Shown: positions 24,961 to 33,789 of the stretch, one piece after another
Layout of the letters: each line of letters opens with the position of its first letter
Numbering within the stretch: the first letter of the stretch is position 1
Assembly (NCBI RefSeq): GCF_001477495.1
Contig: NZ_LDTF01000048.1
Span: forward strand, 1-64,000
Length of the DNA: 64,000 nt
Direction: 5' to 3'
DNA from: Sphingomonas yabuuchiae
GTDB taxonomy: Bacteria; Pseudomonadota; Alphaproteobacteria; Sphingomonadales; Sphingomonadaceae
Position numbers and translations under genes: made by a program
The notes under the pieces: generated by a model
What the model was told of the DNA's origin: nothing
Databases searched by the model: none
Seen by the model: only the letters and a program-made list of their open reading frames with translations

Positions 24961-27291
24961 ATGAAAGCCACGTACAAGCCGTATCGCCTCCCCTCCGGCG
25001 GCTGGGGCTCTGCGCGCTCGGTCGGCAATATCCTGCGCCGGGAGAGCGTGCTTGGCAGCGCCAGCGTCGCGCTGTCGCGGCATAACAAGGTCGATGGCTA
25101 TCAGTGCAACAGCTGCGCCTGGGTCAAACCCGCCACGCCGCTTCCCTTCGAATTCTGCGAGAACGGCGTGAAGGCGGTGGCGTGGGAATTGACCGCGCAT
25201 CGCTGCACACCCGCCTTCTTCGCCGAACATACGGTCAGCGAGTTGCTGACGTGGGATGACTATCATCTGGAACAGCCAGGCCGCCTGACCCATCCGCTGC
25301 GCTATGATCCCGCGACCGACAAATATGTCCCGGTATCCTGGGGCCATGCCATCGCGGAGATCGCCCACGAACTTCGCGCCGTGGAAGACAAGCAACACGG
25401 CACCGTCTTCTACAGCTCCGGCCGGTTGTCGAATGAAGGCAGCTATCTTTATCAGCTGTTCGCCCGGCTTTACGGCAACAACAACCTGCCCGACAGTTCG
25501 AACATGTGCCACGAGACGACCTCGGTCGCCCTGCCCGCCAGCATCGGCCAGGGCGTCGGCACGGTTGATCTGGGGGACTTTGCGACCACCGACTGCCTTA
25601 TGTTCTTCGGCCAGAATCCGGGCAGCAACTCGCCGCGCATGCTCCACCCGCTGCAGGAGGCCAGCCAGCGCGGGGTGCCGATCATCACCTTCAATCCGCT
25701 TCGCGAACGCGGGTTGGAGCGGTTCCTGAACCCCCAGTCGCCAACCGAGATGCTGACAGGCAAGGATACGCGGATCAGCTCGGACTATCATCAGGTCAAG
25801 AATGGCGGCGATCTGGCCGCGATCGCAGGGATCTGCAAGGCGGTGCTGACGCTGCACGACGACGCGCTGGCGGCGGGTGAGCCACCGATCCTCGACCTCG
25901 CCTTTATCGACGAGCACACCCACGGGTTTGAGCGTTTCGCCGACTGGCTACGGGTACAGGATTGGGACGAGCTGGAACGGCGGTCGGGTCTCCATCGTGC
26001 CGATCTCGAAGCGACCGCGCTCATCTATGCCCGCGCGCAGTCGACCATCGGCATTTATGGCATGGGCCTGACGCAGCACCGTGCGGGGGTCGAGACGGTG
26101 CAGATGCTGGTCAACCTGCTCCTGATGCGCGGCAATATCGGGCGTCCCGGCGCGGGCATCTGTCCGGTCCGCGGCCACAGCAATGTCCAGGGCCAACGGA
26201 CGGTCGGGATTACCGAAAAGCCCGAGCTATTCCCCCTCGACCGGCTGGGCGAGCAATTCGGTTTCGAGCCGCCGCGCGAGGCGGGATACAACACGGTCGA
26301 GGCGTGCGAGGCGATCCTCGAAGGCCGGGTGAAGGCGTTCTTCATGCTGGGCGGCAACTTCGCCCGCGCCATCCCCGACCAGGGCCGAATGGAGCCCGCC
26401 TGGCGCCGGATGCGGCTGACCGTCAATGTCCTGACCAAGCTCAACCGTACGGCGCTGCTCCCCGGCGAGATCAGCTATATCCTGCCCGTCATCGGGCGGC
26501 TGGAGATAGACGAGACTGCAGCCGGGCAGCAGGTGCTGTCGATGGAGGACACCTCCGGCTGCGTCCACGGCAATCGCGGAATCCGCACACCGGCCTCTCC
26601 GCATCTCATCAGCGAGATACGGCTGTTGTGCGAACTTGCCAAACAGGTCTTCGAGCCCAACCCCAAGGTACGGTGGGACGATTATATGACCGACTATGCT
26701 GAGATCCGGCGGGAGATCGCTCACACCCTGCCTGACAATTTCCACGACTATGAAACGCGCATGTGGGAGCCCGGCGGCTTCCAGCGCGATCTGCCCGCCA
26801 AACGGCGCGAATGGCAAACCGATACCGGCCGCGCCAATTTCGTCACACCGGAGGCACTCGACGAGGATCTCGACATGCCGGACGTCGGGCATGACGCGCT
26901 GCGGCTGATGACCCTGCGCAGCAACGATCAGTTCAATACGACCGTCTATGGCTATAACGATCGCTTCCGGGGTATCGACGGCATCCGCAACGTCGTGCTG
27001 ATGAACCGATCCGACATAGAACGCCGGGGGCTGAAGGTGGGACAGGCGGTGACGTTGCGCACCGTCGCCGATGACGGGGTCGACCGGCATCTGTCGGGGA
27101 TGATCGTCGTCGCCTACGACATCCCGGTCGGGTGCATCGGCGGCTATTATCCCGAGTGCAACGTCCTGATGCCGGTCTGGCATTATGCCGTGGGCAGCAA
27201 GACGCCCGCCGCCAAGTCGATCCCTGTGAAGGTGACGAGCGACGGCGACGCGATCCTGGAGCCGGGAATGGAGGATCATTCGATGGCATGA
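24961..27291 (+). CDS. FdhF/YdeP-family molybdopterin oxidoreductase
   Basis: A 776-residue relative of formate dehydrogenase H that binds a bis-molybdopterin guanine dinucleotide. YdeP-type proteins are characterised by a reduced N-terminal cluster region, here CNSCAW near residue 51 rather than the four-cysteine Fe-S motif. The molybdopterin core shows SSGRLSNEGSYLYQLFARLYG, FGQNPGSNSPRML and the C-terminal cofactor-binding domain (LRSNDQFNTTVYGYNDRFRG). E. coli YdeP has been linked to acid tolerance, but the true substrate is not established. CAGGAGA precedes the ATG. A monocistronic-looking gene. Confidence 0.9.
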   Translation: MKATYKPYRLPSGGWGSARSVGNILRRESVLGSASVALSRHNKVDGYQCNSCAWVKPATPLPFEFCENGVKAVAWELTAHRCTPAFFAEHTVSELLTWDDYHLEQPGRLTHPLRYDPATDKYVPVSWGHAIAEIAHELRAVEDKQHGTVFYSSGRLSNEGSYLYQLFARLYGNNNLPDSSNMCHETTSVALPASIGQGVGTVDLGDFATTDCLMFFGQNPGSNSPRMLHPLQEASQRGVPIITFNPLRERGLERFLNPQSPTEMLTGKDTRISSDYHQVKNGGDLAAIAGICKAVLTLHDDALAAGEPPILDLAFIDEHTHGFERFADWLRVQDWDELERRSGLHRADLEATALIYARAQSTIGIYGMGLTQHRAGVETVQMLVNLLLMRGNIGRPGAGICPVRGHSNVQGQRTVGITEKPELFPLDRLGEQFGFEPPREAGYNTVEACEAILEGRVKAFFMLGGNFARAIPDQGRMEPAWRRMRLTVNVLTKLNRTALLPGEISYILPVIGRLEIDETAAGQQVLSMEDTSGCVHGNRGIRTPASPHLISEIRLLCELAKQVFEPNPKVRWDDYMTDYAEIRREIAHTLPDNFHDYETRMWEPGGFQRDLPAKRREWQTDTGRANFVTPEALDEDLDMPDVGHDALRLMTLRSNDQFNTTVYGYNDRFRGIDGIRNVVLMNRSDIERRGLKVGQAVTLRTVADDGVDRHLSGMIVVAYDIPVGCIGGYYPECNVLMPVWHYAVGSKTPAAKSIPVKVTSDGDAILEPGMEDHSMA

Positions 27292-27322: not shown

Positions 27323-27745
27323 TCAATCCAGGGTATAGAGATAGGCCGCGATCGCGCGCGCTTCCGCCTCGCTCAGCCCTTGTTCCGGCATACCGGTGCC
27401 GGGACGCATCTTCTGGGGATGCATCAGCCAGCGCGTCATCGTGTCGGGATCGTTGGGGAAAGCGCCCGCAATATGCGCACGGGTGGCGATCTTGGACAAA
27501 GATGGCCCTACGCTGCCGGACGCGCCTGTGATTCCGGGAATATCATGACAGCCGCCGCAGCCGCGCTGCACGATGGCGGCACGCCCGCAATCGACCCGTC
27601 CACCGGTGATCGCCTCGGCACGCGTGCGTGTCTTCGCGCGTGTCTCGGCATAAAGGGTTATCCCTGCGATGACCGCCGCGAGCATCGCGAGCCCGAACAA
27701 GGCGGCAAGCCACATCAGTGTCGCAGGCACCGGACGCCTAGGCAT
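27323..27745 (-). CDS. membrane-anchored c-type cytochrome
   Basis: A 140-residue protein with an N-terminal membrane anchor (residues 9-32) and one class I cytochrome c domain: CGGCH haem site near residue 63, distal Met in GTGMPEQGLS near 118. It is the last gene of the oxidase operon, overlapping the CtaG-like gene by 8 bp. It could deliver electrons to the CuA site of the encoded oxidase. Confidence 0.88.
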   Translation of the reverse strand: MPRRPVPATLMWLAALFGLAMLAAVIAGITLYAETRAKTRTRAEAITGGRVDCGRAAIVQRGCGGCHDIPGITGASGSVGPSLSKIATRAHIAGAFPNDPDTMTRWLMHPQKMRPGTGMPEQGLSEAEARAIAAYLYTLD

Positions 27746-28610
27746 GCGCGATCCTCAGCAGACGCCGCATGACGATCAACGCGGCCGCCGCATGGACGAC
27801 ACCGCCCGGCACCCACATCAGCAGGCCCGCCAGTTGCTGATCCTCGGCGGGCGTCAGGCCGAAGGGCGCAAGGCCCAGCCGGGCATAACCGACATACCAG
27901 GGGCTCGTTGCGAAGGCCATCAACGCTCCCAGCGCGCCCGAGACGATCGAGGTCGCGACCAGGCACAGGGCGGCGGTTCCGGCCGCGACGTGGCGGCCGA
28001 GCATCGCATTCCAGAAGAACAGCGCACTGACGAGGAATGACAGGTGCTGCGCCGCGTGCCAGCCTTCATGGGCAAGCGCCAGGTCGAACAGGACGGGCGC
28101 ATGCCACAACCACAAGGCCGTCGCCTGAACGAGCGTCGCCGTCACGGGTGCCGAAACCATGCGCCACGGCACCGCGATGACGGGCGCCATGACCAGCGAT
28201 CCGATGGCGCGCCGCCCAGCCGCCGGGAAAGCCCACAGCATCACGGGTAAAGGCTCGGCCAGCACCAGCAACGGCGCGGCGACCAGCATGATCAGCTCAT
28301 GCTCGAACATATGCGCCGCGAAGGATCGCTCCCCCGCTTCATGGAGCGGCGAGACGAGCGCGATGCCGAGGATCAACCACCCCGTCGCGAACAGCCGTGC
28401 CCGCCGCCCCCATCGCGCCCTGCCCTGCCCCGAACGCCGCGCCAGCCGCCGCCACCCGACGGCGAACAGCAGTAGCGCGAACAGCAGTGGTACGATGATC
28501 CAGGGATCGAGGGTCCAGCCGGGCGGCTCGTCATGGGGCTGCCCGGTGTCATGCGCCCAGGCCGGGGCGGCCAGAAACGCCAGCGCGACCATGGCTTTCA
28601 CGCGACGCAT
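27738..28610 (-). CDS. CtaG-like (caa3-type) oxidase assembly membrane protein
   Basis: A 290-residue protein with an N-terminal signal-like segment and seven or so membrane helices. Conserved histidines and methionines of the Caa3_CtaG family are seen in AAHMFEHELIMLVAAPLLVL, ALWLWHAPVLFDLAL and HAAQHLSFLVSALFFW. Family members take part in copper-centre assembly of cytochrome c oxidases. The open frame extends upstream into the neighbouring gene, but 28610 gives the natural N-terminus. Overlaps the preceding gene by 13 bp. Confidence 0.85.
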   Translation of the reverse strand: MRRVKAMVALAFLAAPAWAHDTGQPHDEPPGWTLDPWIIVPLLFALLLFAVGWRRLARRSGQGRARWGRRARLFATGWLILGIALVSPLHEAGERSFAAHMFEHELIMLVAAPLLVLAEPLPVMLWAFPAAGRRAIGSLVMAPVIAVPWRMVSAPVTATLVQATALWLWHAPVLFDLALAHEGWHAAQHLSFLVSALFFWNAMLGRHVAAGTAALCLVATSIVSGALGALMAFATSPWYVGYARLGLAPFGLTPAEDQQLAGLLMWVPGGVVHAAAALIVMRRLLRIAHA

Positions 28611-28906
28611 GGCGGAATCGATAGAATGGCGAGCGTCTGGAAGAGGATTGCGAGCGCGAAGAAGCCCGCTACCAGCATAGCGGACCGTGCCAGCCAGACG
28701 TCCGAAAGCGGGCTCCGCCGCGCCCGATACGGCCAACCGAACCACAGGGCGCCAAGGCACAGGGCAAGGCTGATGACACCCCAAGCGATCCCCAGGCCCG
28801 AGCGCGTGCAATCGCCGTGTAGCACCGCCGACAGCCCCTGCTCGAAGGCGAACCAGATGATCGGCGGCACGACGAGCCCCACCCAGGCGCGGGCACGGAT
28901 CCTCAT
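28598..28906 (-). CDS. small membrane protein of the oxidase operon
   Basis: A 102-residue protein with three predicted membrane helices (about 10-28, 41-60, 72-95). No metal ligands. Its position between subunit III and the CtaG-like gene, with overlaps on both sides, suggests a small fourth oxidase subunit or assembly helper. I do not recognise the family. Confidence 0.7.
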   Translation of the reverse strand: MRIRARAWVGLVVPPIIWFAFEQGLSAVLHGDCTRSGLGIAWGVISLALCLGALWFGWPYRARRSPLSDVWLARSAMLVAGFFALAILFQTLAILSIPPCVA

Positions 28907-29526
28907 AGCGCCCGCGGCGCCCAATAGATCAATGCATAGAGCGGCAGCCAGGTCAGGACGACGAAGGACCAGTAATTGGCATTGTCCTCCACGTCGGAGA
29001 ACTGGTCGTCGCCGATCTCATGTGTGAACAGCCAGACCGCCTGGACCGCGCATTCGGCCCATTCGGTGACGATATGCGTCGTATGGAGCACCAGTAGCAG
29101 CCACAGGACCGAGCCATAGCCGTCCCGGTCCCACCGCACCCCCAAATGGGCGAACTCCGCCCCGCGCAAAGCCATCAGGACCAGGCCGATCAGCACCAAC
29201 CCCGCCATGCCCCAGCGCACCGCCGCCGCCTTTTTGGCGCGGGCGCAGCACAGCACCCAGAGGTTCGGCACCGTGCTGAGCACCAGCGCGGCGGTGAAGA
29301 TCCCGCTCCACAACAGGCCGGGCAGCGCATCACCGGCTGGTGGCCAGACGGCACTCTGCGTCATCAGATAGAGATAGGCCGCCGCCGCCAGCGCGAAGCC
29401 TGTCCCTTCGATGACCATGAAACCGATATTGCCCCACCAGACCAGGTGCCGCGCGCCGATCGCACCGGACGGCAGGCTCGACAGGTCGGCGACGACCTCG
29501 AACGGGCGTGGGGGTGACGTGGTCAT
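28903..29526 (-). CDS. cytochrome c oxidase subunit III
   Basis: A 207-residue, five-helix form of COX3, shorter than the seven-helix version. Family hallmarks are WWGNIGFMVIEGTGFALAAA, LHTTHIVTEWAECAVQAVWL and the C-terminal ANYWSFVVLTWLPLYALIYW. Starts at 29526, overlapping subunit I by ATGA. The open frame continues far upstream in antiphase to subunit I and is not coding there. Confidence 0.88.
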   Translation of the reverse strand: MTTSPPRPFEVVADLSSLPSGAIGARHLVWWGNIGFMVIEGTGFALAAAAYLYLMTQSAVWPPAGDALPGLLWSGIFTAALVLSTVPNLWVLCCARAKKAAAVRWGMAGLVLIGLVLMALRGAEFAHLGVRWDRDGYGSVLWLLLVLHTTHIVTEWAECAVQAVWLFTHEIGDDQFSDVEDNANYWSFVVLTWLPLYALIYWAPRAL

Positions 29527-31397
29527 CCGCGGTTCCTTCGTGGGCGCTGCGGCCAGAACCAGCCGGTCAGCGCCGCGCCGATCGGCACCGCACCGACCAC
29601 GATCGCCCACGGGGTGAAGATGCTGGCGATGAACATCACGCTGACCGCCAGCGCGGACAGAAGCGGCCAGATCGAGGGCGATGCGCTTTTCTGGCGATAA
29701 AGCGGATCGGCATCGGTGACGGAGGTGATGAGTACCTCGCGTCGCTCGATCGCCACCCCGTCCGCGACGCGCAACGGAGCAGCGCCGTTCCACATCGGCG
29801 TCAGGCTGTCGACCATCGGGGTATAGGCGAGGTTCCAGGACGGTGCGGGCGCCTCGCCCGCCCATTCCAGCGTCGAGCCGCCCCATGGGTCCGGCCCGGA
29901 CGGCGCCCCCCGCCAGTAACAGACCAGCGCATTGGCGACGAACACCAGACCGCCCGCCACCGCAATCACGCTGCCCAGGGTGGCGACCTGGTTCAGCCTT
30001 TCCCACCCCATGCCCGCAGGATAGGTATAGACCCGGCGCGGCATTCCCAGCAGGCCGAGCAGGTGCATCGGGAAGAAGCCCAGATTGAACCCGCCGACGA
30101 TCAGCGCGAAGGCGATCCGCCCCCAGCGCTCCGACATCATCCGACCCGTCGCCTTGGGATACCAGTAGCAGAACGCCCCGAAGAGCGGGAACATCGCGCC
30201 GCCGACCAGGACATAATGGAAATGCGCGACGATGAAGTAGCTGTCGGTCAATTGCAGGTCGAGCGCCGCCGACGCGGTCATTACCCCCGATAGCCCGCCG
30301 ATCACGAAGGTCGTGACGAAGCCGATCACCCACAGCATCGGCGTCGCCAGCCAGGGCCGTCCGCTCCATATCGTGGCGATCCAGCAAAAGATCTGCAGTC
30401 CGGCGGGCAGAGCGATCGCCATGCTGGCGGCGGTGTAGAAATTGTTGCCGAGACGCGGGAGCCCGACCGCGAACATGTGGTGCACCCACAGACCAAAAGC
30501 GAGCGCGCCGATCGACAGGATTGCCAGCACGATTACCGAATGCCCAAAGAGCGGGCGGCGCGAAAACGTCTCGACGATCGCCGAGACGAAGCCGGTTGCG
30601 GGCACGAAGATGATGTACACCTCCGGATGGCCGAAGAACCAGAAGAGGTGCTGGAACAGCAGCACGTCCCCGCCCCCGGCGGGCGAGAAGAAATGGGTCG
30701 AGACCAGACGGTCGGCGATCAGCATCGACGTCACCAGCATGATCGCGGGCATCGACAGGATCGTCATGATCGACGCGACGAGCATCGCCCACAAAAAGAC
30801 CGGCATCCGCGCCAGCGTCATGCCGGGCGGTCGCATCTTCAGGATCGTCGCCGCGACATTGACCGAGGCGGCGAGAGCCGCGACCTCGGTAAAGGTGATC
30901 ATCTGCGCCCAGATATCGGCGCGGTGGCCGGGGGCATAGGCAGGGCCGCTGAGCGGGGGATATTCGAACCAGCCCAGATCGGGGGTGATGTCCAGGGCAT
31001 GGCTGATCCACAGCGTCAGCACACCACCGAGATACAGCCAATAGCTGAACGCCCCCAACCGGGGAAACGCCATGTTGCGCTGTCCCAGCATCAGGGGAAC
31101 CAGCCAGAAGGCCATGGCCTCCATGACCGGCACCGAGACGAGGAACAGCATCGTCGACCCGTGCAGCGAGAAGCTCTCATTATAGAGTTGCGGACCCATG
31201 CGGACATTTTCGGGCGTCGACAGCTGCCAGCGCATGTCGAGCGCCAACATGCCCGCCAGGAACATCAGGAGCAGCGCGGTGACGATATAGCGTGCCGCGA
31301 TCCGCTTGTGATCGACGGTGGTCAGGAACCCCCACAACCCCGGCGGGTCGCGCCACGTCAGCGACAGCCGGTCCAGCCGCGTCTGTTCGGGCCTCAT
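29523..31397 (-). CDS. haem-copper oxidase subunit I lacking canonical proton-channel residues
   Basis: A 624-residue, 12-helix catalytic subunit. All metal ligands are present: H79 and H394 (low-spin haem), H257 with cross-linked Y261 in FGHPEVY, H306-H307 (CuB), H392 (haem a3). E259 of the HPEVY motif is kept. The D-channel entry Asp of A1-type enzymes (D124 of Paracoccus) is Asn here (N108 in LGQRNMAFPR), the following Asn pair is Gly-Ala, and the K-channel Lys (K354) is Gln (Q335 in PAGLQIF). A C-terminal extension of about 130 residues contains two further helices. Gene order recalls the alternative coxMNOP-type oxidases. Overlaps both neighbours by 4 bp. Confidence 0.93.
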   Translation of the reverse strand: MRPEQTRLDRLSLTWRDPPGLWGFLTTVDHKRIAARYIVTALLLMFLAGMLALDMRWQLSTPENVRMGPQLYNESFSLHGSTMLFLVSVPVMEAMAFWLVPLMLGQRNMAFPRLGAFSYWLYLGGVLTLWISHALDITPDLGWFEYPPLSGPAYAPGHRADIWAQMITFTEVAALAASVNVAATILKMRPPGMTLARMPVFLWAMLVASIMTILSMPAIMLVTSMLIADRLVSTHFFSPAGGGDVLLFQHLFWFFGHPEVYIIFVPATGFVSAIVETFSRRPLFGHSVIVLAILSIGALAFGLWVHHMFAVGLPRLGNNFYTAASMAIALPAGLQIFCWIATIWSGRPWLATPMLWVIGFVTTFVIGGLSGVMTASAALDLQLTDSYFIVAHFHYVLVGGAMFPLFGAFCYWYPKATGRMMSERWGRIAFALIVGGFNLGFFPMHLLGLLGMPRRVYTYPAGMGWERLNQVATLGSVIAVAGGLVFVANALVCYWRGAPSGPDPWGGSTLEWAGEAPAPSWNLAYTPMVDSLTPMWNGAAPLRVADGVAIERREVLITSVTDADPLYRQKSASPSIWPLLSALAVSVMFIASIFTPWAIVVGAVPIGAALTGWFWPQRPRRNRG

Positions 31398-32356
31398 CGC
31401 AGGCGCTCCAGATAGGTGGCGAGCGCATCGGCATCGGGCCCCGACAATGGCACGCTCGGCATCGCGGTGCCGGGCTTCAAGGCCTGGGGCTGCGCGATCC
31501 AACCCTGAAGATTACCCCGCGTCATGGTCAGCGTGCCCGCCGCGATCGAGCGCCGCGCCGCAAGATGCGTCAGATCCGGCCCCGCCCGCCCCGACGCGCC
31601 TGTTCCGCGTATGGTGTGACAGGCGGCACACGGCCCCGCGAAGACCGCCGCCCCGCGCGACGCGACGGCGGCGGCCGGTCGCGCCTGCGTCGCCAGCCAG
31701 GCATCGAACGCGGCTGCGCTCTCCACCTTCACGTCGAGCGCCATATGAGCGTGCTGGGTTCCACAGAATTCGGCGCACTGGCCGCGAAACCAGCCGATCC
31801 GGCGCGGCGTCAGGTCCAGGATATTGCGGCGCCCGGGAATCATGTCGAGCTTGCCCGCGACATTGGGCACCCAGAAGCTGTGGATCACATCCGCCGAGCC
31901 CAGCGCAAGCCGCGTCGTTCGGTCGCGTGGCAGGTGCAGCTCGTTGGCGGTCTCGATCCATCGGCCGGTGGCGGGATCGCGATATTCGATCCGCCACCAC
32001 CATTGGTGTCCGGTCACGCGCACGATCATCGCGCCGTGCGCCCGTGAGGCGAACACCGCGCGGTCCGCGACGAAGCTGCCGATGATGAGGACGGTGAGGC
32101 CGACGACGATCACGATGGCCACCGCCCACAGGCCCCGCTCGGGGACCACCGCCGCATCGCTTGCGGAACGGGCGCGCCACAGGCTCCAGCCCAATCCGCC
32201 GAGAACCAGCATATAGATGACGCCGCATACGCCCATCATCAGGAGGAAGAGGCTGTGCAACGCCGCCGCCTGATCACCACCTGGTGCCAGCGGCGACTGA
32301 ATGCCCTGACACCCGGCCAGCGACAGCAACGCGCCGGTCACGATGATCCGCATCAT
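31394..32356 (-). CDS. cytochrome c oxidase subunit II fused to cytochrome c
   Basis: A 320-residue lipoprotein (lipobox LSLAGC, Cys16) with two membrane helices (about 36-60, 74-98), a cupredoxin domain with the CuA ligands (HSFWVPN, then CAEFCGTQHAHM) and a C-terminal cytochrome c domain (CAACH, Met in GTAMPSVPL). This is the caa3-type build in which the electron donor is fused to subunit II. The aromatic electron-entry patch GHQWWWRIEY is intact. ATG 32356 overlaps the stop of the upstream cytochrome gene. Confidence 0.93.
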   Translation of the reverse strand: MMRIIVTGALLSLAGCQGIQSPLAPGGDQAAALHSLFLLMMGVCGVIYMLVLGGLGWSLWRARSASDAAVVPERGLWAVAIVIVVGLTVLIIGSFVADRAVFASRAHGAMIVRVTGHQWWWRIEYRDPATGRWIETANELHLPRDRTTRLALGSADVIHSFWVPNVAGKLDMIPGRRNILDLTPRRIGWFRGQCAEFCGTQHAHMALDVKVESAAAFDAWLATQARPAAAVASRGAAVFAGPCAACHTIRGTGASGRAGPDLTHLAARRSIAAGTLTMTRGNLQGWIAQPQALKPGTAMPSVPLSGPDADALATYLERLR

Positions 32357-32805
32357 TGCGGTCCCCACCATGCCGCCCCCCGGGGTTCGGCCTGCTGGTC
32401 GAGTGCCTGTCGCCGTCGCTTCTCGGGCATGTGGCGCTGCAGATCACGGGCATAGGCGGTCAACTGCCAAAGCGGCTCGACCGGAATGCGCGTCGCATAG
32501 GCCCGGTCGCCATGACCATGGGCGATCGATGTAAAGACCGCGGCAAAGCCCCCGCCCCGCTTCCATCGCCCATCGGTCAGGTCGCGCGCACCCTGCGCAC
32601 CGTCGCCATGGCATCCGGCGCAACCGTAATAGAGGAAATACCGGCCGCCCTGCGCGACCTGCCCAAAATTGTCCTGATAATAGGCGATGCGTGGGTCCTG
32701 CTCACCGATCGGTGCGGTTTGCGGTACGGTCGGACCGACCTCCCGCGCCTCGCTGCTGCACCCGCAAAGCAACATCGCGAGTACGGCCGCCCGCGCCCGT
32801 CGCAT
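32353..32805 (-). CDS. cytochrome c lipoprotein
   Basis: A 150-residue protein with a signal and lipobox (LLCGC, Cys at about 15) and one haem site CAGCHGDG near residue 65. The C-terminal half is variable and the distal ligand is not obvious (Met in RHMPEKRR is a candidate). First gene of the seven-gene oxidase operon; 32820 is an alternative start. Probably an outer- or inner-membrane-bound electron carrier feeding the oxidase. Confidence 0.82.
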   Translation of the reverse strand: MRRARAAVLAMLLCGCSSEAREVGPTVPQTAPIGEQDPRIAYYQDNFGQVAQGGRYFLYYGCAGCHGDGAQGARDLTDGRWKRGGGFAAVFTSIAHGHGDRAYATRIPVEPLWQLTAYARDLQRHMPEKRRRQALDQQAEPRGAAWWGPQ

Positions 32806-33141
32806 ATCAGCCGCGGGCATGGTTCGATGCGCACCGGATCAGGCTGGCATCGCTCCCCTGATTTCGCCTCTCCGCCACACAGCACTCCGCCAACATTGAC
32901 GGATAGCTTTAGCCAAAAATACGAAGTGTTCGATGATCCACGTCAATATGCCACATCCGCTACCCACATGGATCAATGATCGACTTATGACTTCATATCT
33001 TTTTCTGACACGCGAGAATTACGATCGCCACCGACCAGCGGTTAAAATCTATATCACAGATGCACAAAAAACCTTTTAACCGAGCTGAATTCGGAACGCC
33101 GTCCTTCTGCCTCCGTTATCCCATTACGAAGCGGAGAGCGC
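32806..33141. other. AT-richer intergenic promoter region
   Basis: The 336 bp between the oxidase operon and the chimeric pseudogene contain no supported gene. Composition is clearly more AT-rich than the surroundings between about 32900 and 33080. It must hold the oxidase operon promoter. I looked for an FNR/FixK-type TTGAT-N4-ATCAA box and found no convincing one. Confidence 0.5.
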
Positions 33142-33709
33142 GTGATGAAAGCAGTCGCCTGGCACGGTATCGGCGATATCCGGATCGACGCGGTGCCCGA
33201 CCCCCATATTCAGGAACCAGCCGACCGCCTTGTTCGCCTGACCATATCGGCAGTTTGCGGCACCGATCTTCGTCTCGTGCGCGGCACATTTGCGCGGATG
33301 CGGGTCGGCACGATCCTCGGCCACGCAGGCGCCGGCGCGGTCGAGGCATTAGGCGATCTGGTGCGCGGGTTTAGCGTGGCACTGCGCGGCGAACTGTTGG
33401 AGCACCCGCGCATCCACATCCGCGACGTCTATCCGACCTTCGTCGATATGCCCGGCGTGGATCACACCGGGAATTACACGGGTGTGAAGCGGTCGCCACC
33501 CGGTTCGCTGACGCCCGAAACCGTGACAAAGGCGATCGTCCTGATTGCCGATCACCCCCGCGATCATCCTGAAGCTGGACCAGTTGCTGATCCCCAATCT
33601 GGCGGTCGGCGCCGCCTCCGAACGGCGACGGAAGGCCTGCGTCATGGGCGTCGGTACCGTGTTCGGCGGTCTCGCCGCGATCAGCGCATTGGCGATGCGA
33701 CGCGAATAG
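33142..33709 (+). pseudogene. chimeric remnant: alcohol dehydrogenase N-terminus joined to SDR C-terminus
   Basis: Residues 1-75 of the frame are the N-terminal part of a zinc alcohol dehydrogenase (MKAVAWHGIGDIRIDAVPDP, ISAVCGTDLRLVRGT, GTILGHAGAGAVEALGD). From about 33375 it continues in frame as the C-terminal part of a short-chain dehydrogenase (HPRIHIRDVYPTFVDMPGV then TGNYTG). After IVLIADHPRD the coding continues in another frame (33563-33709, ending ASERRRKACV...SALAMRRE). It lacks both complete active sites and is non-functional as any enzyme. Confidence 0.75.
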
Positions 33710-33782
33710 CCTCGTCCTATCGATGCCCGCCGCTGTCGGCATATGGGACGACCGAAATTCGAGGCGCTATCGATCTGAAATA

Positions 33783-33789
33783 AGGAGGA
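33783..33789 (+). promoter_or_regulatory. strong Shine-Dalgarno deciding the DUF3606 start
   Basis: AAGGAGG ends 4 bases before the second of two adjacent ATGs (33794) and only one base before the first (33791), so translation should begin at 33794. Confidence 0.6.

Follow-up and report, generated by a model that had tools for sequence, protein, structure and literature searches.

The residues of the D- and K-channels form the basis on which heme-copper oxidases are classified and their proton pumping is modeled, and the roles of the channels have been worked out largely from point mutants whose enzyme is crippled or decoupled. How an oxidase in which key residues of both channels are replaced obtains its protons, and whether it pumps any, is the question raised by a subunit I gene of Sphingomonas yabuuchiae. 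The gene occupies positions 29523-31397, on the minus strand, of a 64,000-nucleotide stretch of DNA (contig NZ_LDTF01000048.1), referred to here as the window. A first-pass annotation, made from the sequence, had placed in this interval an oxidase subunit lacking both canonical channel residues, and had proposed that it either uses a different proton route or does not pump, perhaps acting as an electron sink. We find that loss of the K-channel Lys, of most D-entry acids, and of the Asn gate is a trait of the whole clade to which the gene belongs, and that it is accompanied by an invariant new Glu in transmembrane helix 4 (TM4). The reading that we favor, tentatively and somewhat short of an even chance, is that of a functional accessory cytochrome c oxidase (COX) of the COX operon type a-II kind, with a re-routed proton path, weak or no pumping, and a main role as an electron sink.

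An intact active site with replaced channel residues

A single gene fills the interval, its ATG overlapping the stop codon of the subunit II gene. It encodes a 624-residue subunit I of an A-family heme-copper oxidase (PF00115, 460 bits) and scores 646.9 bits with the NCBIfam CtaD model, just under the cut-off of 670.75. The catalytic core is complete, as the first-pass annotation had stated: H79, H257, H306, H307, H392, and H394, which we take to be the heme and CuB ligands, are all present, and the HPEVY motif of helix VI contains both the cross-link Tyr, Y261 (codon TAC, 30615-30617), and E259 (GAG, 30621-30623), equivalent to E286 of the Rhodobacter sphaeroides enzyme.

Both channel losses are evident from the codons. 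The D-channel Asp position (R. sphaeroides D132, Paracoccus D124) is N108 (AAC, 31074-31076), the Asn pair N139-N140 is replaced by G115-A116 (31050-31055), and the K-channel Lys position (K362, Paracoccus K354) is Q335 (CAG, 30393-30395). The alignment with a solved A-family oxidase is gapless through both motifs (GARDVAFP/GQRNMAFP and IPTGVKIF/LPAGLQIF). Since there is no Asp or Glu between E93 and D136, and no Lys or Arg between residues 325 and 346, a local shift restores neither site; realignment to recover the Asp or the Lys was rejected for want of a candidate residue nearby. Two other acids are present: E171 (30885-30887), at the position of R. sphaeroides G198 in TM4, which had been overlooked at first pass, and E93 (31119-31121), in transmembrane helix 2 near the N121 position.

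The predicted fold is that of family A. An AlphaFold2 model (mean pLDDT 84, from 32 sequences) superimposes on E. coli bo3 (Z 47.2, 2.3 Å, 583 residues, model residues 17-618), on R. sphaeroides aa3 (2gsm; Z 45.5, 1.8 Å, 497 residues), and on Thermus caa3 (Z 44.8, 2.1 Å, 579 residues, to model residue 617). Most solved mitochondrial chains end near model residue 531, and the C-terminal extension amounts to about 93 residues instead of the roughly 130 first estimated. It had been read as fitting a specialized enzyme, yet it is ordinary: the parts of bo3 and caa3 beyond the common core align with it through residues 617-618. Both of those enzymes are proton pumps with canonical channel residues, bo3 using quinol. 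The extension and the operon layout were accordingly set aside as signs of novelty, both being already known.

The losses extend across a clade

Homologues were assigned to the clade holding the window gene (X), to fused I+III oxidases (F; L012-L028), to a small clade (W; L008-L011), or to canonical oxidases. They came from an order-level collection of 196 genomes (22 matched at E ≤ 1e-120, X, F, and W together), a genus-level collection of 295 (26 at E ≤ 1e-178) and a class-level collection of 385 (4 at E ≤ 1e-170), the window genome being among the matches in the latter two, and from the best 80 of the matches listed for named genomes, which added Novosphingobium, Mesorhizobium, Rhizobium, Pseudoroseomonas, Siccirubricoccus, and one Caballeronia. 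Residues were counted over distinct sequences (44 X, 17 F, 4 W, 62 canonical); these include near-copies, and at 90% identity 34 of the 44 X, 15 of the 17 F, and 44 of the 62 canonical sequences are left.

The K362 position is Gln in all 44 X and all 17 F sequences, Ala, Ser, or Thr in W, and Lys in all 62 canonical ones, while an acid stands at the D132 position in only 4/44 X, as against 17/17 F, 4/4 W, and 62/62 canonical sequences. The K position (Gln 44/44 versus Lys 62/62) and the D position (acidic 4/44 versus 62/62) argue that the loss is not due to chance. The Asn gate (N121, N139, and N207, R. sphaeroides numbering) is complete in every canonical sequence and in no X sequence; N121 is kept in none of the X or F sequences but in all of W and the canonical set, and the same distribution holds for Asn at both N139 and N207. 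In the 27 rows of the core sphingomonad subclade of X, among them the window gene, the D position is Asn, Ala, or Thr, and S200 and S201 are both replaced by Ala; elsewhere in X (17 rows) the D position is N in 9, E in 3, S in 3, and Q and D in 1 each. Plasmid copies from R. etli, Mesorhizobium japonicum, and Sphingobium yanoikuyae, which are 59%, 61%, and 84% identical to the window protein, share E171, E259, and Q335; at the D position, the first and last have Asn and the M. japonicum copy His.

The His ligands are complete in X, F, W, and canonical sequences, the R481/R482 positions are conserved in 44/44 X, and the E286 position is Glu throughout X, F, and the canonical set (Trp in all of W). 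In subunit II, read by eye, the CuA motif is conserved in X, F, and W, while the K-channel Glu is not.

Clade W, made up of family A subunits of about 650 residues from four genomes of the order, is a mirror image of X, having HPWVY and Ala, Ser, or Thr at the K position while retaining D132, N121, N139, and N207.

A new glutamate and three other possible proton routes

Position 198 (E171) is Glu in X (44/44) and F (17/17) and Gly in W (4/4) and the canonical set (62/62), exactly the distribution of the Lys-to-Gln replacement. E93 is Glu in 35 and Gln in 9 of the 44 X sequences. By helix numbering, E171 falls between V194 and S201, the latter a D-channel residue; V194 is described as lining the O2 channel (PMC4256069).

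An invariant acid of this kind could belong to a true proton pump with a single rebuilt D-like channel, in which E171 and E93 replace the lost Asp and Asn and carry both substrate and pumped protons. The invariance and distribution of E171 suit this idea, as does the fact that E259 is never lost in X or F. Moreover, clade F, whose D-entry acid is retained and in which E93, E171, and an acidic residue at N207 all occur (17/17), has the appearance of a functioning chain of acids. In the core sphingomonad subclade, however, the residues at the N121, D132, N139, S200, and S201 positions are less polar or smaller, and an acid at N207 or a replacement at N139 decouples bacterial enzymes (PMC10194837, PMC6934443). 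On balance, we consider a rebuilt pump unlikely.

The K side offers another route, resembling that of families B and C, in which one K-type path without Lys (Q335, S325, S272, Y261) would serve all protons and the D side would be a relic. These residues are well kept (Q335 and S325 in 44/44, Ser at S272 in 43/44, the Tyr in 42/44), and B- and C-type enzymes have a K-analogue without Lys (PMC3084760). Nevertheless, the clade does not conserve the entry Glu of subunit II, most of its sequences have Ala or Ser in place of T359, and a dead D side would not require the invariant E259, which makes this route quite unlikely in our view.

Finally, the protons for water could come from the periplasm in a non-electrogenic reaction that only removes electrons or oxygen, like that of the cytochrome c-dependent nitric oxide reductase (cNOR), which lacks such channels (PMC3084760). 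The window protein has none of the canonical cytoplasmic entry residues, as this would predict, but E259 is kept, and no path from the periplasm came to light. Moreover, the HPEVY Glu of the family A fold is supplied from the cytoplasmic side, and we judge a periplasmic supply very improbable.

A possible order of the changes

A tree of 75 rows was built by a quick method with the trait columns blanked. The 44 X rows form one side of a branch (support 93), F and W have supports of 99 and 100, and X, F, and W together form one group (support 100), within which the branching order is without support; the branches of W and of the canonical rows, both long, meet one another, and the divergent X member L055 is also on a long branch. 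On this tree, one change suffices for E171 and three for acid versus non-acid at the D position, non-acid rows occurring only within X. The K position requires four changes, and the D-position and E93 residues ten each.

At its D entry, L055 (genome G570) still has Asp, accompanied by E93, E171, and E180; it may show the ancestral state of X, though on a long branch.

A widespread lineage of A-family oxidases would then have replaced both textbook channels. On the simplest count, the change from Lys to Gln and the gain of the TM4 Glu would each have happened a single time, in a common ancestor with the fused I+III enzymes, and the D entry and the Asn gate would have been dismantled later. The result would be a naturally decoupled yet selected cytochrome c oxidase, feeding E286 by a route undescribed for the superfamily. 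Taken as a whole, this scenario is possible but doubtful.

Selection and the other oxidases of the cell

The ratio of nonsynonymous to synonymous substitution rates (dN/dS) of the subunit I gene is 0.03-0.05 against the two nearest relatives and 0.12-0.13 against six relatives of 83-87% identity (0.03-0.13 for all eight, which span 83-99%), as expected of a gene under purifying selection. These values speak against a decaying or inactive paralogue, as do the metal ligands (44/44), an operon kept in most named loci, and the wide distribution. Such decay would be in line with the free variation of the D-entry residue and with two relatives without the cross-link Tyr, but we find it very unlikely. 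The two relatives are L046 (Cys, TGT; genome G463) and L048 (Asn, AAC; G420), both from draft genomes, and the changes could be sequencing errors or real losses.

The window genome has five COX1-family genes, all of family A by their motifs: besides the present gene, a canonical one (L001, with D, Asn pair, and K), two bo3-like ones (L002 and L003), and a fused I+III gene (L028, D kept, Lys replaced by Gln). All 29 searched genomes carrying the gene contain another COX1-family match. In 28 of them, the best such match scores like the canonical copy of the window genome (523 bits or more); in the 29th, a draft, the sole other match is partial and contains a stop.

Operon and neighborhood

The gene belongs to an operon of seven genes, all on the minus strand. 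It opens with a c-type cytochrome (32353-32820) with a CxxCH motif and, by eye, a lipoprotein-like signal, whose Pfam score of 24.8 bits lies below the cut-off of 27. Subunit II (31394-32371), with a CuA motif and a fused c-type cytochrome domain, and subunit I are followed by a short subunit III (28903-29526, 207 residues) and a small predicted membrane protein (28598-28924, 108 residues) that also occurs in six sphingomonad loci and has no NCBIfam match. A Caa3_CtaG-type copper assembly protein (27738-28610; start inferred from the signal peptide, the reading frame being open to 28811) and a last c-type cytochrome (27323-27745) complete the operon. The two extra cytochromes noted at first pass are thus confirmed, and the domain on subunit II makes a third. 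Most of the 19 named X loci repeat the order cytochrome c-II-I-III-CtaG-cytochrome c; the first cytochrome was not found in L066 and L067, L070 has no subunit II upstream, and L071 has no CtaG in place.

Convergent with the operon lies a molybdopterin oxidoreductase of the FdhF/YdeP family (24961-27291, plus strand; TIGR01701, 915.6 bits, cut-off 582.15). Such a gene adjoins the X operon in 8 of the 19 named loci (a ninth, L065, has only a weak FdhF/YdeP-like match) and a pyrroloquinoline quinone (PQQ) dehydrogenase gene in 5, one locus having both, as against 0/61 canonical loci for either. Because the canonical loci were not matched by taxon, we also set the X locus of each of ten sphingomonads against the canonical locus in its own genome, over about 8 kb on each side: FdhF/YdeP was found in 3/10 versus 0/10, and PQQ dehydrogenase in 1/10 versus 0/10. 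The link to dehydrogenases is therefore genuine in some members without being a general feature of the clade. FdhF/YdeP proteins of Pseudomonas putida are reported to be formate-induced and 59% identical to Fdh4A of Methylobacterium extorquens, which acts in formate oxidation (PMC10308882), and a link of the oxidase operon to one-carbon or alcohol oxidation is plausible.

Several loci have further peculiarities. The M. japonicum copy (L137) lies on pMLb, a plasmid typed as conjugative, between SpoVR/YeaH/PrkA genes on one side and Hsp20, LigD, and two Ku genes on the other. Rhizobial plasmids carry many of the close matches among those listed. The locus in Caballeronia arvi (L070) is a betaproteobacterial member of the clade, which suggests horizontal transfer. 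On plasmid pKN1 of S. yanoikuyae (L138), subunit I of this clade carries the misleading annotation 'cbb3-type cytochrome c oxidase subunit I'.

Upstream of the first operon gene, by about 112 bases, is an FNR/FixK-like box with one mismatch, TTGACGTGGATCAT (32933-32946, minus strand). Among 26 regions of about 320 bases upstream of the first gene, TTGA-N6-TCAA is perfect in three, two of which look like one strain, and has one mismatch in ten more, several of them near-copies; the background is 0.008 per kb for perfect and 0.221 per kb for one-mismatch sites. These motifs are no more than suggestive of FNR/FixK control. The Ku/LigD, Hsp20, and SpoVR genes beside the M. japonicum copy led us to consider the EcfG general stress response, but its motif, GGAAC-N15-18-CGTT, is absent from the 600 bases upstream of the window operon, and for the window, though not beyond it, the idea was dropped. 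A single perfect EcfG-like motif does occur in the gap (33093-33117, plus strand), facing away from the operon and just upstream of a short alcohol dehydrogenase reading frame (33142-33783, matched only by ADH_N). In the related metagenome-assembled loci L066 and L067, an EcfG-like motif lies about 100 bases before subunit II, the first operon gene found there, and about 1.1 kb before subunit I.

Relation to known oxidases

The six His ligands and the helix VI cross-link Tyr place the window protein in family A. With the canonical A1 aa3 enzymes (R. sphaeroides, Paracoccus, L001) it shares fold, metal ligands, cross-link Tyr, and HPEVY Glu, but D132, N121, N139, N140, S200, S201, T359, K362, and the subunit II Glu are replaced, and E171 and E93 are new. 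In the A1 scheme, the D-channel comprises Asp124, Asn199, Asn113, Asn131, Tyr35, Ser134, Ser193, and Glu278, and the K-channel Lys354, Thr351, Ser291, and Tyr280 (PMC3084760). Asp124, Asn113, Asn131, and Ser193 are replaced here, while Asn199 (N180), Tyr35 (Y37), Ser134 (S118), and Glu278 (E259) are left; in the K-channel, Lys and Thr have become Q335 and A332, and Ser (S272) and Tyr (Y261) remain. A2 oxidases have YS before HP, where the window protein has FG. Nor does it fit the A2 definition, in which Tyr replaces the D-channel Glu (PMC3084760), as its HPEVY Glu is present. Similarity to aa3-600 (417 bits) far exceeds that to ba3 (33 bits), unlike a type B enzyme, and Tyr261 lies within HPEVY in the helix formed by residues 258-279, whereas type C and NOR enzymes are defined by a cross-link Tyr in helix VII, or none (PMC3084760). 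The oxidase therefore lies outside the definitions of A1, A2, B, and C that were tested, yet is of family A by sequence and fold. The fused I+III enzymes share with the window protein the Gln at the K position, E171, E93, and the loss of N121 and N139 (F 17/17), but differ in their retained D-entry Asp or Glu (17/17) and in having subunit III fused.

The closest described system is COX operon type a-II of Degli Esposti et al. (2014), reported in Rhizobium, Sinorhizobium, and Mesorhizobium, which has a COX1 of 630-670 residues with a C-terminal extension, a short five-helix COX3, and frequently a PQQ dehydrogenase (PMC4013037). The window shares the extension and the short COX3. Its COX1 length is at the lower edge of the range (624 residues here; 637, 623, and 629 in the plasmid copies), and no PQQ dehydrogenase was found among the ten window proteins tested. 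The word 'channel' appears nowhere in the main text of that paper; relative to its description, the new elements are the FdhF/YdeP neighbor, the Glu in TM4, and the absence of the D, K, and Asn-gate residues. Type a-III is characterized by a COX3 doublet; the window has one COX3, next to a small gene without an NCBIfam match. A hint at rhizobial coxMNOP-type proteins in the first-pass annotation did not hold: R. etli coxMNOP is likewise an alternative rhizobial oxidase but a separate operon, and the clade member of R. etli lies on p42b. The latter is probably the 'putative', unstudied RHE_PB00063-66 of PMC4274787, going by an inferred match of locus tags.

In one survey, the expected channel residues are wanting in only 4 of 1216 sequences, all nearest to B-type enzymes (PMC3084760). 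This figure is difficult to reconcile with clade X unless the clade was then sparsely sequenced or the screening was lax. For archaeal sequences of family A, K-channel loss has been a subject of discussion (PMC8239418, which refers to K-channel variants in a supplementary figure and to work by Degli Esposti et al. in 2020). In the literature searched, consisting of main texts with few subscription journals, we found no report of combined D and K loss with a new Glu in this clade.

A proposed mode of action

Under the reading that we favor, electrons would reach CuA through the c-type cytochromes of the operon, coming in part from neighboring PQQ or FdhF/YdeP dehydrogenase systems. Substrate protons would be taken from the cytoplasm and converge on E259, whose invariance makes it the most likely destination, by a changed route that would include E171 and perhaps E93, D29/H30, and water. 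Coupling to pumping would be weak or absent; alongside the cell's pumping oxidases, this one would serve chiefly as an electron sink.

In no X member is N121 kept, nor are N139 and N207 both Asn in any of them, and the simplest forecast from this is weak or no pumping. In bacterial enzymes, single mutations at two gate positions suffice for decoupling: in the N139D mutant (given as Asn98Asp), pumping is abolished while O2 reduction stays normal, N139T/S are termed decoupled, with an explanation from simulation (PMC10194837), and N207D uncouples (PMC6934443). On the K side, Lys-to-Met blocks the reductive phase (PMC10194837). The earlier proposal of a different route or no pumping is thus supported in part: it fits the broken Asn gate, the unconserved subunit II Glu, these mutants, the four other A-family oxidases of the genome, and the dehydrogenase genes beside the operon in some relatives.

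Several points weigh against this reading. Mutation of D132 or K362 leaves the R. sphaeroides enzyme almost without activity; the clade must therefore have found compensation, which could extend to pumping. Equivalent Asn mutants left pumping unaffected in the mammalian enzyme (PMC6934443), and families B and C conserve energy without the D-channel and this Lys (PMC3084760), so residue loss alone is no proof of lost pumping. The placing of E171 or E93 in a path to E259 is tentative, coming from helix numbering, and an indel in transmembrane helix 2 makes the helix face of E93 ambiguous. Neither dehydrogenase lies within about 8 kb in 6 of the 10 sphingomonads, and, FdhF/YdeP proteins being described as soluble (PMC10308882), there is no evident electron path from them to a periplasmic cytochrome c. 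Lastly, dN/dS rises to 0.21-0.37 against four remoter members.

Implications

Clade X is in effect a natural multiple mutant kept under selection. Together with its relatives, it offers a graded series, from K lost and D kept in the fused clade, through the four members with an acid at the D position, to N, A, T, S, Q, or H elsewhere, and this series could directly test which residues pumping needs. More practically, a gene annotated as 'ctaD' need not encode an aa3 oxidase that pumps, and a COX type for which closeness to mitochondrial ancestors has been proposed may be bioenergetically divergent. The spare oxidase of sphingomonads, rhizobia, and some of their relatives is thereby a natural test of how protons are supplied to an oxidase.

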